Source of the DNA: Pseudomonas fluorescens
GTDB lineage: Bacteria; Pseudomonadota; Gammaproteobacteria; Pseudomonadales; Pseudomonadaceae
Assembly: GCF_001623525.1 (NCBI RefSeq)
Contig: NZ_CP015225.1
Span: 6,398,501 to 6,462,500 of the forward strand
DNA: 64,000 nucleotides
Direction: 5' to 3'
Shown here one piece after another: positions 12,209-22,586 of the stretch (the stretch's first letter is position 1; the number at the start of each line of letters is the position of its first letter). A program made the position numbers and the translations under genes. The notes under the pieces are model-generated. The model was not told where the DNA came from. It saw nothing but the letters and a program-made list of their open reading frames with translations, and searched no databases.

Positions 12209-12847
12209 TCAATCGTCGGAGGTCTTGTGCTTGTACTCGCATAAATCTTCGATTCGGCAGCTGCCGCAGCGAGGCTTGCGTGCCAGGCAAACGTAGCGGC
12301 CGTGAAGGATGAGCCAGTGATGGGAGTCCAGCAGGAATTCCTTGGGAACAAATTTCATCAATTTCTTCTCGACCTCCACCACGTTTTTGCCGGGGGCCAG
12401 CCCGGTGCGGTTGCTGACGCGGAAAATGTGGGTGTCGACCGCCATGGTCAACTGCCGAAACGCGGTATTGAGCACGACGTTGGCGGTTTTGCGGCCGACC
12501 CCCGGGAGGGCTTCCAGCGCTTCGCGAGTCTGCGGGACTTCACTGCCATGGCGCTCGATCAGCAGGCGGCAGGTCTCGATCACGTTTTTGGCCTTGCTGT
12601 TGAACAGCCCGATGGTCTTGATGTATTCGGACAGTCCTTCGACGCCCAGGGCATAGATCGCCTCTGGCGTATTGGCCACCGGGAACAGTTTGGCCGTGGC
12701 TTTGTTGACGCCGACATCGGTGGACTGGGCTGACAGAATGACCGCGATCAGCAACTCGAACGGCGAGGAATAGGCCAGTTCGGTTTTCGGTTCCGGGTTG
12801 TCCTCGTGAAGGCGACGAAATATTTCCAGGCGTTTTGCGGCGTTCAT
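12209..12847 (-). CDS. nth: Endonuclease III (DNA glycosylase/AP lyase)
   Basis: 212-residue base-excision repair enzyme removing oxidised pyrimidines. The helix-hairpin-helix LPGVGRKTA contains the catalytic lysine (about residue 120), the catalytic aspartate lies in VDTHIFRVSNR, and the C-terminal [4Fe-4S] cluster ligands follow the exact C-x6-C-x2-C-x5-C pattern. Its ATG overlaps the rnfE stop by 4 bp, so it is the last gene of the rnf operon, an arrangement common in gammaproteobacteria. Confidence 0.97.
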   Translation of the reverse strand: MNAAKRLEIFRRLHEDNPEPKTELAYSSPFELLIAVILSAQSTDVGVNKATAKLFPVANTPEAIYALGVEGLSEYIKTIGLFNSKAKNVIETCRLLIERHGSEVPQTREALEALPGVGRKTANVVLNTAFRQLTMAVDTHIFRVSNRTGLAPGKNVVEVEKKLMKFVPKEFLLDSHHWLILHGRYVCLARKPRCGSCRIEDLCEYKHKTSDD

Positions 12848-13377
12848 GGGCGCGGCGTTTCCTCAACGGATGAATGGGGTCTGGCGGCCGTCCAGGCCTG
12901 TCGGGCCGCCAACAGCAGCCCGAGCAGAATGAACCCGCCAGGGGCGAGCAGGGCCAGGGGCAGGCCGTTGCCGATCAACTCACGCACGGCGCCCAGGCTG
13001 ATCATCAAAAGGCCAAACAGCCCGGCCAGCCTGAGGCGTCCGGGCCAGCGAGAATCAACGAAGAAGCCCTCATGCTCCAGCGCTACGCAGCTCAGGGCGA
13101 CCCAGCCAACGTAAAGGCTCAACGGTCGATACAATTCCAGTGCCCAGGCCTGGAGGACAAGGCCAATGCAGGTGCTCAGGGTAGCGGCCAACACGATAGA
13201 GGCGAGCAGCCGTTGACAGGCTGCCAGGTGTTGGCGCACAAGCCCCATTGCCAAGCCATGGCTGCAAAGAACCAGGGCCCAGGCCAGCCATAACCCCAGC
13301 GCGCCAACCAGCGAATCGCTCGCGCCGACCAATGGGACGAGCAGCAGGCCGTGTGTCAGTCCCCAAGACTTATTCAT
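12844..13377 (-). CDS. rnfE: Rnf complex membrane subunit RnfE, divergent and short
   Basis: 178 residues against roughly 200-240 for the family, with about five or six membrane helices. It is recognisable from its place between rnfG and nth and from segments such as ALGLWLAWALVL and the LIGNG motif. The conserved LGLCP loop near the N-terminus, which carries one cysteine of the intramembrane iron-sulfur site in canonical RnfE, is missing (short deletion, no Cys). The second site is kept as ALSCVALE. Start overlaps the rnfG stop by 8 bp. Function in electron transfer is therefore uncertain. Confidence 0.75.
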   Translation of the reverse strand: MNKSWGLTHGLLLVPLVGASDSLVGALGLWLAWALVLCSHGLAMGLVRQHLAACQRLLASIVLAATLSTCIGLVLQAWALELYRPLSLYVGWVALSCVALEHEGFFVDSRWPGRLRLAGLFGLLMISLGAVRELIGNGLPLALLAPGGFILLGLLLAARQAWTAARPHSSVEETPRP

Positions 13378-13981
13378 TGGCCGCCACCCCCGTCAACTGA
13401 GCCTTGTGCTCGTCGAAGTAACGCAGCGCATCGTGAACAGCCTGGAGGACCGCCCGGGACGTCACTGTCGCGCCAGCCAGTTGATCGAACTGGCCCTGGT
13501 CCTTTTTCAAGGCCCAGCCGCTGTCATCAGGTGCCTGGCGTGATTTACCCGTGAAGGTCTGCAACCAGGCGTTCGGCCAGCCGGCAATTGCTGCGCCCAA
13601 TCCGGGTGTCTCGGATTGGCGCAGGGTCTTGACGCCCAGCAACCGGCCCTGTGGATCGATGGCGACCAGCAATTCGATGCTGCCTTCATAGCCCAGCGCC
13701 TGGCTACGCAGCAGCACGGCGCTGGGTTGGCCGCTGCGAGTCGCCAGGTAGCCGCCCAGCAGCGTGCTATGGGCCAGGGGCTCTGAGGCTGTGACAACGG
13801 GGTGCGCCAACGGCTGGTTATCATAGTGGTCGGTGGGCAGCACCTCGAGCAAGGCCCTGTTCGCCAGCGCTTGCTGCTGGGCCTCGATGCGCCCGGCCGT
13901 GCCGAGGTGCGTGAGGTAAGTGGCACCGAGCCCCAGGCCGATCAACAAGGTCAGGATTGCCACGCCGACGGGGTTGTTCAT
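13370..13981 (-). CDS. rnfG: Rnf complex flavoprotein subunit RnfG
   Basis: 203 residues with a single N-terminal membrane anchor (about 5-25) and a periplasmic FMN-binding domain. The covalent flavin attachment motif is DQLAGAT, with T172 as the expected FMN-bearing residue; the usual Ser of SGAT is Ala, but D166, GA and T are kept, as ApbE-type flavin transfer requires. Also present is ETPGLGA. The ATG overlaps the rnfD stop by 4 bp. It takes electrons within the Rnf chain in canonical systems. Confidence 0.88.
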   Translation of the reverse strand: MNNPVGVAILTLLIGLGLGATYLTHLGTAGRIEAQQQALANRALLEVLPTDHYDNQPLAHPVVTASEPLAHSTLLGGYLATRSGQPSAVLLRSQALGYEGSIELLVAIDPQGRLLGVKTLRQSETPGLGAAIAGWPNAWLQTFTGKSRQAPDDSGWALKKDQGQFDQLAGATVTSRAVLQAVHDALRYFDEHKAQLTGVAANE

Positions 13982-14964
13982 GTCAGTGGCCGCCGTTGTC
14001 GCGCCTCGGCAAACCGGTCCAGTGCCGGCACGCCGAGGTTCATCAACAACACTGCGAACGCCACGCCGTCGGGATAGCCACCCCAGGTGCGTATCAGATA
14101 GACCAGCAATCCCATGCCCGCGCCAAACAGCAGGCGGGCGAGAGGAGCCTTGGCACCTGAGACCGGTTCGGTCGCGATAAAAAACGCGCCGAGCATGGTT
14201 GCGCCGCTGAACAGATGAAACAGCGGCGAGCCATGGGAGTCGGAGCCCGAACCGTTCCAGCACAGCAGGCTGACGACGGATAGGCTCAGCAGCATGCCCA
14301 CGGGGGCATGCCAACTGAACACCCGTTGCTGCAGCAGAAACAGACCGCCCGCCAGGAAGGCCAGGTTGACCCATTCGCCACCCCGGCCGCCGAAACGCCC
14401 GAACGCCGGATCGTTGGCGAACAGTTCATCGATGGTCAGGCTCGCGTTGATTCGCAGGCTGTCCAGTGCGGTCGCCCCGGCCCAGGCATCGGGCGCCGGA
14501 TGAGCGCCGAATACCTGCTGCAAGCCTTCAGACAGGCCCATGCCGTGGAGCGCCGGCCAGTGACTCATCTGGGAAGGAAAGGCCACCAGTACCAGGGCGT
14601 ACCCGAGCATGGCCGGGTTGAACGGGTTACTGCCGACGCCGCCCCACAGGTGCTTGCCGAACAGCAAGGCGCAGGCGGCCGCCGTGACGGTCAGCCACCA
14701 GGGGCAATAGGCCGGTAAGGCCAGGGCCAGCAGCGTGGCGCTGACCAGCGCGCTGCCATCGTTCAGGTCGCGCCTGAGTGGCTGGCGTCGCAAACGCAGC
14801 ACCAACGCCTCCACTGCCAGCGCAGTGACGCCGGACAACAGCAGGTTGAGCGCCACGCCCCAGCCTTGGAACCACAGCAACGCCAGCACGCCGGGCAGCG
14901 TCGCCAGCAACACTCGCGTCATTGCTTGGCGCAGCCGTTCGTCCACTGGCTCAAGAGGCGGCAT
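13978..14964 (-). CDS. rnfD: Rnf complex membrane flavoprotein subunit RnfD
   Basis: 328 residues and about nine membrane helices. The NqrB/RnfD signatures [13 protein letters not shown] and [18 protein letters not shown] are well preserved. The likely covalent FMN site is DAWAGAT, with Thr at residue 165; as in RnfG here, the usual Ser before GAT is Ala. I chose the ATG at 14964 because AGGTGG lies six bases upstream; an ATG at 14988 would add eight residues. It overlaps the end of rnfB by 14 bp. In canonical operons rnfC lies between rnfB and rnfD; here it is absent. Confidence 0.88.
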
Positions 14965-15970
14965 GGGCGTCCACCTGGCGTTCGGCATCCTTCACCGCTT
15001 GTTCCAATGCCTGCAGTTGTTCATCCGATGCCGTAGCTGCCCGGGCTTTGCTGAGTTCGGCGCGGCGCATCGCCAGTTGGATCTTGGCCCGCTTCAGCTC
15101 GGCGTTTTGCGTCGGTGCTGGGGCTGGCGCGGCCGCGGGCGCGGCGTTTTCCAGCTGGTTCAGCGCCTGTTCGGCCGCTTCGAACTGGCGTTGCAGCACG
15201 ATCAGTTGCGACTGCTGCTCGAAGGTTGGCGGGTGGCCGAACGCTTTCAAGGATTTGTTCAACTGTGCCCGGCTCATGGCCAGGTCGACCTTGGCTTTTT
15301 TCAAGGCGGCATCGGCGGTGGCGGCTTTTTGCGCGCGCACGCGCTCCAGCGCGGCTTGCACGGGGTCGAGTGCCGGGGCCTGGGTTTGAGCCTGGACCTG
15401 CGCCGCCCGTTGGGTCCGAGCCAGGCGCTCGGCCTGGCGCTGCTCATCTTCGCGGCGCAGGCGTGCATTGCGTTGTTCGAAGCGGCGCCGGGCATGATTG
15501 CGCTTGGCGGTTCGCGCCTGTTGCTCTTCGGTGCTGAAGGCCAGGCCGCCGACGATCGGCAGCACGTTTGCCGTCAGCAGAGGACGCATTTCGATGCAAT
15601 CGACCGGGCAGGGCGCCACGCACAGGTCGCAGCCTGTGCATTCGTCGATGAGGACGGTGTGCATCAGCTTGGCGGCGCCGACAATCGCATCCACCGGACA
15701 GGCCTGGATGCACTTGGTGCAACCGATGCATTCGGCTTCCCGGATAAAGGCGATTTGCGCCGGGGCCACGCCGCGGCTGGTGTCCAGCTCCAACACCGGT
15801 ATTTTCATCAGTTCGGCCAGGGCCGCGATGGTTTCGCGCCCCCCGGGCGGACATTTATTGATCGGCTCGCCCTGGGCGATGCCTTCGGCGTAGGGTTTGC
15901 ACCCGGGATGGCCGCACTTGCCGCATTGGGTCTGCGGCAGCAGGGCGTCGATACGTTGAATCAGGCTCAT
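14951..15970 (-). CDS. rnfB: Rnf complex ferredoxin subunit RnfB, soluble, with long coiled-coil tail
   Basis: 339 residues against about 190 for typical RnfB. The first 130 residues hold the iron-sulfur part: C16, C19, C24 and C40 (domain [4Fe-4S]) and two ferredoxin clusters with C81/84/87/91 and C111/114/117/121. The membrane-anchoring N-terminal helix of canonical RnfB is missing; the protein starts directly at [14 protein letters not shown]. Residues 135-339 are an Ala/Gln/Lys/Glu-rich coiled coil with two related blocks ([17 protein letters not shown] and [17 protein letters not shown]), resembling the Ala-rich tails usually found on RnfC. Start overlaps rnfA by 4 bp. Confidence 0.9.
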
Positions 15971-16539
15971 GTTTTGACCAGCCCGCGTAATCCGAGAAAG
16001 GCCACCGCCATCAGGCCGGCGCTGATCAACTGAATCGGCAGGCCCCGAAAGGGCAGGGGAATATCGTTATTGAAAGTGCGCTGGCGCAAATCGTCGAACA
16101 GGCCCAGCACCAGCCAGAACCCCAGCCCGGCACCCAGGCTCAGGGCGATGGCGTGGCCCAGGCCCCGGTCATCCTGGCCGTTGAGCAGTGTGACGCCCAG
16201 TATGCCGGCATTGCCGAGCAACAGCGGCCACAACCCCTCGAACGACATTGCCGGCCGCCAGCGTGCCAGCAGGCGCAGCAAGGGGCCGATCAGCAACACG
16301 CTCAAGGACAGCCAGGCCAACAAGCGCAGCGAGACCAGGTTGCTCGGCGCAAGCAGATAATGATCGATCAGGTAGCCCAGGGTGCCGACGATCAGCATCA
16401 GGCACGCCGTCGCCAGGCCCAAGGCGTGCACCTGCTTTCGACCATTGGCCGCCAGCAGCGGATCGACGCCCAGCGGCCAGTGCAACACCAGGTTGTTGAT
16501 CAGGGCAGCGCTGAACAGCGTGAGGACGATTTCGGTCAT
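15967..16539 (-). CDS. rnfA: Rnf complex membrane subunit RnfA, divergent
   Basis: 190 residues and about six membrane helices, the usual RnfA size. Family features remain (LINNLVL near residue 15, [14 protein letters not shown] near 105). However the two cysteines that ligate the intramembrane [2Fe-2S] cluster in canonical RnfA are gone: LGLCP reads LGVDP (residue 26 is Asp) and the TNCAVLG motif reads GNAGILG. First gene of the operon rnfA-B-D-G-E-nth, with all junctions overlapping. No clear terminator follows nth. Confidence 0.8.
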
Positions 16540-16669: not shown

Positions 16670-18715
16670 TTACTTGATTCGCTGGCCCGGCTTGGCGCCG
16701 CTGTCAGGGCTCAACAGGTAGATTTCCTCGCCGCCGGGGCCTGCCGCCATCACCATGCCTTCGGAGATGCCAAAGCGCATTTTGCGCGGCTTGAGGTTGG
16801 CGATCATCATCGTCAACCGACCTTCGAGCTTGGCCGGGTCCGGGTAGGCACTCTTGATACCGGAGAACACGTTGCGTTGCTCGTCGCCGATGTCCAGGGT
16901 CAGGCGCAGCAGCTTGTCGGCGCCTTCGACGGCCTCGGCCTTGACGATCAGCGCCACGCGCAGGTCAACGGCGGCGAAAGTGTCGAAGTCGATTTCCGGC
17001 GACAGCGGGTCCTTGGCCAGTTCGCCGTTCCCGGCAGGTGCACCGGTGTCGGTCTGGCTGGCGGCCAGGTCTTCCTTGGAGGCGTCGGTCATGGCTTGCA
17101 CCTTGGTCGCGTCGATACGGGTCATCAACGGTTTGAACGCGTTCAACTGATGGTTGCTCAGCAGCGTCTGGTGATCGTTCCAGGTCAGCGGTGCGACGTT
17201 GAGGAACGCCTCGGCATCGGCGGCCAGCAGCGGCAGCACCGGCTTGAGGAAAATCACCAGTTGGCGGAACAGGTTGATGCCCAAGGCGCAGATCGCCTGG
17301 ACTTCGTCCTGCTTGCCTTCCTGCTTGGCCAGGGACCAGGGCGCCTTGTCGGCGATCCAGGCATTGGCGCGGTCGGCCAGGGCCATGATTTCGCGCATGG
17401 CGCGGGCAAAGTCGCGGCTCTCGTAGGCGTCGGCGATGCTTGGCGCCGCGGCCAGGAAGGCGTCGGTCAGCTCCGGCGCGGCGTTGCCGGCTACCAGAAC
17501 ACCGGCGTTGCCTTTGTGGATAAAACCGGCGCAGCGGCTGGCAATGTTGACCACCTTGCCCACCAGGTCGGAGTTGACCTTCTGCACGAAGTCTTCGAGA
17601 TTCAGGTCCAGGTCGTCGACGCCACGGCCGAGCTTGGCCGCGTAGTAGTAGCGCAGGTATTCCGGCGACAGGTGGTCCAGGTAGGTCCGGGCCTTGATGA
17701 AGGTGCCGCGGGACTTGGACATTTTCTGGCCGTTGACGGTCAGGTAGCCGTGGACATTGATGCCGGTCGGCTTGCGGAAGCCGGCGCCTTCGAGCATGGC
17801 TGGCCAGAACAAGGCGTGGAAGTTGACGATGTCCTTGCCGATGAAGTGATACAGCTCGGCAGTGGAGTCCTTGCCCCAGAACGCGTCGAAGTCCAGCTCC
17901 GGTGTGCGGTTGCAGAGGTTCTTGAAACTCGCCATGTAGCCGATCGGTGCGTCCAGCCACACGTAGAAATACTTGCCAGGCTCGTCGGGGATCTCGAAGC
18001 CGAAGTACGGCGCATCGCGGGAAATGTCCCACTGCTGCAGGCCGGCATCGAGCCATTCGGCGATCTTGTTGGCGACGGCGTCCTGCAGGGTGCCGCTGCG
18101 GGTCCAGGCTTGCAGCATCTGCTGGAAGTCCGGCAGCTTGAAGAAGAAATGCTGGGAGTCCTTGAGCACCGGCGTCGCCCCGGAAATCGCCGATTTCGGG
18201 TCCTTCAGGTCGGTCGGTGCGTAGGTGGCGCCGCATTTTTCGCAGTTGTCGCCGTACTGGTCTTCAGTGCCGCATTTCGGACAGGTGCCCTTGATGAAGC
18301 GGTCGGCCAGGAACATTTTCTTTTCCGGGTCGAAATACTGGGTGATCGAACGGGTAGCGATGTGCCCGGCGTCACGCAGCTTCAGGTAGATCTGGCTCGA
18401 CAGCTCACGGTTTTCTTCGGCGTGGGTGGAGTGGAAGTTGTCGAAATCCACCAGGAACTCGGCAAAGTCGGCGCTGTGTTCAGCCTGGACGTTGGCGATC
18501 AGTTGTTCCGGGGTGATGCCTTCCTTTTCCGCACGCAGCATGATGGCCGAGCCGTGGGCGTCGTCGGCGCAGACATAAATACATTGGTTGCCGCGATGCT
18601 TCTGGAAGCGCACCCACATATCGGTCTGGATGTATTCCAGCATATGGCCGAGGTGAATCGAACCATTGGCATAGGGCAGGGCGCTGGTGACGAGGATCTT
18701 GCGTGGCTCGGACAT
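16670..18715 (-). CDS. metG: Methionyl-tRNA synthetase
   Basis: 681-residue class I synthetase charging tRNA-Met. Visible are HLGH at residues 21-24 (HIGH motif), a zinc knuckle with two C-x2-C pairs (CPKCG and CEKCG), the KMSKS loop, and a C-terminal tRNA-binding/dimerisation domain ([11 protein letters not shown] to the end) joined through a linker. Length and domain order equal the E. coli enzyme. It is divergent from mrp with a REPIN between them, the conserved Pseudomonas arrangement. Confidence 0.98.
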
Positions 18716-22415: not shown

Positions 22416-22443
22416 CTTGTAATCCACTTGTGCGCCCTTATGT
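22416..22443 (+). promoter_or_regulatory. Sigma-32 (RpoH) type promoter of groESL
   Basis: CTTGTA (22416-22421) and CCCTTATGT (22435-22443) are separated by 13 bp, close to the heat-shock consensus CTTGAA-N13-CCCCATNT. It lies about 145 bp upstream of groES, leaving a long 5' leader. Confidence 0.65.
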
Positions 22444-22449
22444 AACGGT

Positions 22450-22586
22450 CACCGCAAGGTTTCCGGTGGTGACACCGGGCAGACTTCCGCGGTTCGACTG
22501 ACGAACCGCACCCGGCTCCGCCGGCTTTGTTAAACCCGCCGGGACTACACCGGCCGATGAAAACCAAAAATTAGGAGAGATCGACA
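22450..22586 (+). ncRNA. Structured groES 5' leader (Pseudomon-groES motif candidate)
   Basis: The leader between the promoter and groES can form several GC-rich hairpins, for example GCGGTTCG-N5-CGAACCGC around 22489-22509, and later CGGCTCCGCCGG- and CCCGCCGGG-type stems. A conserved 5' UTR motif called Pseudomon-groES is known upstream of groES in pseudomonads and this is the right place for it. Assignment is by position and foldability; boundaries are approximate. Confidence 0.5.

Follow-up and report, generated by a model that had tools for sequence, protein, structure and literature searches.

The stretch of DNA analysed here (the window, 64,000 nucleotides of Pseudomonas fluorescens contig NZ_CP015225.1) carries on its minus strand a run of genes recognisable as parts of Rnf, the ferredoxin:NAD+ oxidoreductase RnfABCDGE (Rsx in E. 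coli; NAD, nicotinamide adenine dinucleotide). The open reading frames follow one another in the order rnfA-B-D-G-E-nth (Table 1) and overlap at each junction, by 4 nucleotides at A/B, 38 at B/D, 4 at D/G, 8 at G/E and 4 at E/nth. With rnfB running into rnfD there is no space for the rnfC that canonical operons carry at this point, just as had been proposed from the letters of the sequence (the original prediction). Judged by the NCBIfam subfamily cut-offs, RnfB, RnfD and RnfG are above threshold while RnfA and RnfE fall below it.

Table 1. The rnf operon and its flanking genes (positions in the window; bits are profile scores, aa amino acids)
Feature	Position	Strand	Basis
rnfA-type gene, 190 aa	15967..16539	-	TIGR01943, 103.5 bits vs cut-off 229.3; alignment to RnfA of 7zc6, 9eri and 8ahx
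rnfB fused to an rnfC tail, 339 aa	14951..15970	-	TIGR01944, 214.7 bits vs cut-off 68.7; tail homology to RnfC
Part of RnfB homologous to the RnfC C-terminal tail, residues 145-339	14954..15538	-	identity and bit scores vs RnfC
rnfD, 336 aa	13978..14988	-	TIGR01946, 359.7 bits, above cut-off; alignment to RnfD of 8ahx, 9eri and 7zc6
rnfG, 203 aa	13370..13981	-	TIGR01947, 159.5 bits, above cut-off
rnfE-type gene, 177 aa, N-terminus shortened	12844..13377	-	TIGR01948, 60.2 bits vs cut-off 213.4
nth, endonuclease III, 212 aa, end of the run of overlapping genes	12209..12847	-	TIGR01083, 284.4 bits, above cut-off
metG, upstream neighbour and locus anchor, outside the complex	16670..18715	-	named by reading, no family scan

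We compared three sets of loci. The main set comprises 75 loci, namely the window and 74 relatives that were found by RnfA similarity and are hence biased towards near kin (of those listed under a name, the loci of P. kilonensis and P. brassicacearum come closest, with 96% and 95% RnfA identity). A canonical set comprises 20 RnfC-bearing loci, 18 of them at the same place between metG and nth and two (L137, L138) of another Rnf type, and a divergent set holds 16 further loci. Start residues were set to methionine when locus proteins were compared. All 74 relatives possess A, B, D, G, E and nth, and none has space for rnfC between B and D.

RnfC does not turn up elsewhere in this genome, a single contig of 6.92 megabases. 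The RnfC family TIGR01945 yields no hit above cut-off; three weaker hits (best 53.7 versus 245.95 bits) we take, from their size and position, for NuoF, a formate-dehydrogenase-like subunit and NuoI. A second rnf operon was likewise not found: a genome-wide search with PF02508 (Rnf-Nqr) returns only two genes, both in the window, so that there is no further RnfA/E-type pair and hence no NqrD/E pair.

A part of RnfC does survive, joined to RnfB. The soluble ferredoxin domain of RnfB (residues 1 to about 132, with 12 ligand cysteines) is preceded by two residues in 74 of 75 loci, compared with 35 residues in 18 of the 20 canonical loci, counting in each case from the last methionine ahead of the domain match; RnfB has thus lost its N-terminal membrane anchor. 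The iron-sulphur (Fe-S) ligand cysteines are kept in 74 or 75 of the 75 loci, one row (probably L071) being without the first part of the protein in its frame. From about residue 145 onward, RnfB matches RnfC, beginning just past the last [4Fe-4S] domain and extending through the C-terminal repeats. The tail scores 86.7 bits at 45% identity against the RnfC of locus L120, and 83.2 bits at 51% identity when only tails are compared, whereas the best of 200 local shuffles reaches 26.9 bits and the reversed tail 24.3, which rules out an artefact of composition. The stretch ALKKAK-D-AM-RAQL-KS-KAFG is common to the window RnfB and the RnfC of a genome from the same family (G660), and at L265 the match between the RnfB tail and RnfC extends through a C-terminal block free of repeats, with up to 128 bits. 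A comparison of the tail with solved structures gave no useful match (best E 0.32). Since the C-terminal half of RnfB is an RnfC tail, these matches strongly imply that the core of rnfC was lost while its C-terminal tail became fused to RnfB. Nine RnfBs (L035, L062, L065, L077, L080, L081, L083, L085, L086) are 401-408 residues long, some 65 above the usual length of about 335, and the additional residues may represent a further tail repeat.

Did this happen once? In a tree of RnfB domains, built on few columns and with a bootstrap that had not settled, Pseudomonas fusion proteins and RnfBs found without other intact rnf genes make up a single clade (34 rows, support 100/99), which includes one row from another family (L241) on a long branch and has canonical Pseudomonas RnfB as its sister group (the two combined comprising 52 rows, 97/92). 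We read this as one fusion event in the Pseudomonas lineage. The sequences strongly imply that the ancestor of the operon was an ordinary rnfABCDGE-nth operon of Pseudomonas at the same place between metG and nth. Source databases name close relatives of the window RnfB mostly 'electron transport complex subunit RsxB' or RnfB, so that the change is invisible from names. Basic C-terminal extensions also occur on RnfBs of other gammaproteobacterial families, some of them beside nth (L208-L210, L212, L214, L216, L217, L235, L241-L244). Compared with RnfC, seven of nine such orphan tails score no better than their top shuffle out of 100; L209 is a borderline case (26.2 versus 23.5 shuffled) and L241 a clearer one (35.8 versus 26.9). 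Because these scores lie mostly within the range of the shuffles, we do not claim that the fusion occurred repeatedly.

The membrane pair RnfA and RnfE has changed just as thoroughly. In alignments with the solved RnfA chains of 7zc6, 9eri and 8ahx, LGVDP and GNAGILG of the window RnfA stand opposite the cysteine motifs LGICP/LGLCP and TTNCAVLG, as the original prediction had read them, with D26 and A111 at the positions of the ligand cysteines. For RnfE the prediction was right in that the second cysteine survives (C97, by alignment to 8ahx RnfE) but not in that the LGLCP loop is deleted: the loop is present as LLLVP, aligned with LALCP of the 8ahx chain, so that V14 replaces the first ligand cysteine, and what is missing is a stretch of 12 columns ahead of the loop, absent in 75/75 loci. 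Exactly one of the four ligands of the intramembrane [2Fe-2S] site is retained in each of the 75 loci, compared with four of four in all 20 canonical loci, bearing out the predicted loss of three, and the alignments to solved chains revealed no cysteines in the window proteins that were merely shifted. The replacements are nearly uniform in RnfA (position 26: Asp in 73, Asn in 2; position 111: Ala in 73, Val in 1, Gly in 1) and varied at position 14 of RnfE (Ala 28, Thr 23, Val 19, Pro 4, Ser 1). None of the 16 divergent loci has an RnfA cysteine at either ligand place, position 26 being gapped in two. Taken together, these alignments strongly imply that the [2Fe-2S] site has been abandoned. 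RnfA also has 13 residues (W21, W142 and D150, for example) that are invariant across the 75 loci yet absent from the 18 canonical RnfAs.

The flavin threonines, by contrast, have been kept, as predicted. T173 of RnfD and T172 of RnfG (in GATVTS) are, by alignment of the motif, the sites of covalently bound flavin mononucleotide (FMN); the former is threonine in 74 loci and serine in one, the latter threonine in 75/75. In Acetobacterium woodii, RnfD touches riboflavin via N123 and D249 (PMC11889175). Alignment to solved RnfD chains makes N124 and E274 their equivalents in the window protein. N124 is kept in 75/75 loci, whereas position 274 is glutamate in all 75 and in all 16 divergent loci but aspartate in the 20 canonical loci and the four solved chains shown. 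Both RnfD contacts and the two FMN threonines are retained throughout the divergent set. PF03116 was the sole domain found in a Pfam scan of RnfD, the C-terminal NAD-binding domain PF00175 not being among the domains found, and the genome holds two genes for ApbE, the flavin-attaching enzyme. It is strongly implied, then, that the complex has retained its flavin arm, made up of riboflavin and a covalent FMN in RnfD and a second covalent FMN in RnfG, with a change at one fixed riboflavin-contact residue.

Measures of constraint follow the same division. Columns that are invariant in the 20 canonical loci remain so in at least 95% of the 75 loci for 49 of 63 positions in B, 77 of 104 in D and 35 of 59 in G, as against 30 of 87 in A and 16 of 75 in E. 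RnfA is the most conserved protein among the 18 canonical metG-nth loci (mean identity 96%, followed by B at 91, D at 86, E at 85 and G at 73%), but between canonical and degenerate types identity is 36% for A and 34% for E, compared with 43, 60 and 64% for G, D and B. Ratios of non-synonymous to synonymous substitution rates (dN/dS) between the window and 12 close relatives are 0.15-0.40 for A, 0.08-0.17 for B, 0.12-0.19 for D, 0.09-0.20 for G, 0.20-0.43 for E and 0-0.04 for nth, 0.43 being the maximum for any gene. On these three measures the [2Fe-2S] pair has lost much of its constraint and the flavin subunits less, with none of the genes looking neutral.

How widespread is the degenerate type? 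We surveyed 298 Pseudomonas genomes by thresholded hits of profiles and proteins: canonical Rnf occurs in 38, an RnfA below cut-off together with RnfB in 153 (five of these having NqrE as the best RnfA-profile hit), RnfB without RnfA in 69, RnfA without RnfB in 25, and neither in 13. The 38 genomes with RnfA above the TIGR01943 cut-off are identical to the 38 with a strong RnfC_N hit (E < 1e-30); medium RnfC_N hits occur in 11 genomes, and RnfB is found at E 1e-30 or better in 260. One genome counted as canonical (G022; L138 and contig 62) has a second-type Rnf with RnfC plus a match to fusion-type RnfB. In three genomes (G103, G021, G057; L238, L239, L240), a second RnfC-like protein of about 460 residues precedes an RnfD-like one that carries a GAT motif of the FMN type, with an ApbE-like gene nearby, an arrangement that, going by genes named by eye, is possibly a minimal RnfC-RnfD system.

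The loci themselves were read in 12 of the 69 RnfB-without-RnfA genomes and 6 of the 25 RnfA-without-RnfB genomes, and since the fetched loci were picked by RnfA and RnfB status their proportions are not a sample. Among 20 fetched RnfB loci, RnfB is the sole intact rnf gene between metG and nth in the 12 taken from RnfA-less genomes (in one, L184, an rnfE fragment remains), and the other eight have a fuller rnf set. All six loci picked from RnfA-positive, RnfB-less genomes read metG-A-D-G-E-nth; in one of the loci RnfA lies in two frames (L207), and a weak RnfB match in another (38 bits, in a different frame over rnfA of L202) we take to be query read-through, as query frames for these loci ran from stop to stop. 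The operon thus exists in four states at one place: canonical, fused, RnfB-only and ADGE-only. In the loci read, nth is the neighbour in fused, RnfB-only and RnfB-less loci, and a metG match adjoins 25 of the 26 loci L182-L207 (the exception being L199). Across 293 genomes of the order, a profile of the degenerate RnfA finds matches near 335 bits only in the window genome and another of the same genus (G083); the next, at 138 bits, is a fusion-type genome of the genus (G028), and among the matches listed those from outside the genus reach at most 136 bits. In 17 loci from outside the genus the first RnfA cysteine motif is always present; for the second, 12 gave a match and five did not fit the pattern. 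Elsewhere in the window, a Pseudomon-groES regulatory RNA (22442-22554, 97.2 bits) was the only RNA family above threshold; it is ordinary and unrelated to the operon.

What might such a complex do? In Rnf, as outlined in PMC12174285, electrons pass from RnfB to the [2Fe-2S] site of RnfA/E, on to the FMN of RnfG, then to the FMN and riboflavin of RnfD, and via RnfC to NAD+. That the window complex is no ordinary NADH:ferredoxin oxidoreductase, as originally predicted, is well supported by sequence: the RnfC core is absent and one of four intramembrane ligands remains, throughout the clade. Nor would NAD+ reduction or Rnf-type ion pumping be expected. With the first membrane step and the exit of the canonical path gone and its middle kept, the simplest working machine would carry electrons one way, linking RnfD on its cytosolic side with the FMN that RnfG holds in the periplasm, so that they cross the membrane only via the riboflavin and FMN of RnfD and the FMN of RnfG. 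RnfA and RnfE would serve as a redox-silent membrane scaffold, and the RnfB ferredoxin, where present, would be the likely cytosolic partner. According to PMC12174285 and PMC11889175, the C-terminal helix of RnfC contacts RnfB in the Azotobacter and Acetobacterium complexes; assuming that the RnfB tail is equivalent to this helix, the fusion may have made an intermolecular contact intramolecular, and may bring RnfB near RnfD. In species that have no RnfB, another cytosolic donor or a quinone would have to serve. We regard the chances as evenly balanced that the system is a transmembrane relay running on flavins only, with RnfA/E as a redox-silent scaffold and RnfB as a soluble, separable ferredoxin; the conserved flavin sites leave room for the suggested relay of electrons to covalent flavins. 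The fuller proposal, of a new Rnf-derived electron-transfer machine in about half of the Pseudomonas sampled that is flavin-only and one-way, has abandoned its Fe-S arm, puts RnfB in the place of RnfC via the docking tail and has its riboflavin retuned by the change from aspartate to glutamate, is more tentative, and we would doubt that it is right in every part.

Several observations weigh against these proposals. RnfB and the membrane module do not always travel together: 69 of the 298 genomes hold RnfB without RnfA and 25 the reverse, which weakens the predicted fixed relay from RnfB to the flavins as a general feature. Since either can be missing where the other is retained, two modules are favoured over an obligate path. 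The membrane genes have been lost in a scattered pattern, suggestive of a function that can be dispensed with. RnfE evolves fast and has gained no newly invariant residue, and its C97, kept in 14 of the 16 divergent loci, is lost in two. In addition, we identified no periplasmic electron acceptor.

There are a number of alternative scenarios. The operon might combine two unrelated functions for historical reasons, RnfB with its tail being a soluble ferredoxin that relays electrons to cytosolic Fe-S or flavin proteins and A-D-G-E a quinone-linked flavin module, with no exchange of electrons between the two. By hits, 94 of the 298 genomes have one without the other, the RnfB-only and metG-A-D-G-E-nth loci confirm such states on the DNA, and the dN/dS range of RnfB is the lowest of the five rnf genes. 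However, both parts occur together in 153 genomes, and the frame overlaps in the window suggest coupled synthesis, and we consider this scenario rather unlikely. Imagine instead that the operon were a former Rnf on its way out, kept only by slow loss. RnfB-only rows scattered within the fusion clade would then reflect repeated loss of membrane genes, the rnfE fragment of L184 and the split RnfA of L207 would be remnants, and the upper dN/dS values of RnfE would fit. Yet all five genes are under purifying selection, the flavin sites and E274 are conserved in the main set (save for the one RnfD serine) and in the 16 further loci, and the new invariant residues of RnfA are hard to square with decay, making a relic still less probable. 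Reduction of SoxR, a role proposed for E. coli Rsx (PMC12174285), has homology and the presence of SoxR in this genome in its favour, but co-occurrence among the 36 genomes tested lends no support to it as a conserved role, SoxR being above cut-off in 15 of 25 with a fusion RnfB as against 8 of 9 without RnfB (and 0 of 2 canonical), and we think it highly improbable. Finally, although a few relatives carry another RnfC-like protein beside an RnfD-like one, a normal Rnf with its RnfC encoded elsewhere is hardly credible given that this one-contig genome has no RnfC above cut-off and that the [2Fe-2S] ligands are gone regardless.

In much of Pseudomonas, the genes identifiable as rnfA, B, D, G and E probably form no Rnf enzyme, and models that assign a ferredoxin:NAD+ pump to these species would therefore be wrong. 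The series of canonical, fused, RnfB-only and ADGE-only loci amounts to a natural dissection of Rnf, showing which half lives without the other, and offers a [2Fe-2S]-free system for probing what the flavins do, and what the little-understood RnfC tail does.

How does the operon compare with known systems? With Rnf it shares gene order and place, the RnfB Fe-S ferredoxin subunit, the covalent-FMN threonines of RnfD and RnfG, homologues of RnfA and RnfE, and the nth neighbour. It differs in having no RnfC core (and with it neither the NAD/FMN site nor the two [4Fe-4S] clusters of that subunit), an RnfC tail on RnfB, no RnfB anchor, one of the four RnfA/E cysteines, RnfA and RnfE below their family cut-offs, and glutamate for aspartate at the riboflavin contact. 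Na+-Nqr (NqrABCDEF) has a homologous membrane core, and its riboflavin, according to PMC12174285, passes electrons directly to quinone, a further likeness; on the other side, there is no PF02508 pair here beyond that of the window, NqrF and NqrA not having been searched for. Loss of RnfB and a change from RnfC to NqrA are discussed for the origin of Nqr in PMC4014512, a parallel but different case. One-way relays have been proposed for Nqr/Rnf-like clusters by Meheust et al. 2021 (PMC8238504), and these share a single electron path and RnfD- and RnfG-type proteins with the window operon. They consist of two subunits, with RnfD joined to an NAD-binding domain and its flavin threonine not conserved (PMC10979944), whereas the window RnfD is without PF00175 and keeps its threonine, and A and E are kept as well. 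RsxB of NF005415 (PRK06991) is likewise an RnfB-like ferredoxin with a C-terminal extension, found beside nth in three of four orphan-RnfB loci read from other families, but the window RnfB scores 246.9 bits against a cut-off of 281 and groups with Pseudomonas RnfB in the tree, and the tails in those other lineages are not clearly RnfC-derived. We found no paper on an RnfC-less Rnf of Pseudomonas in the open-access literature, covered mainly through titles and the openings of abstracts, subscription papers being outside its scope. The degenerate operon, to which we ascribe a putative function from its sequence, keeps the place, the ferredoxin and the flavin sites of its canonical ancestor.

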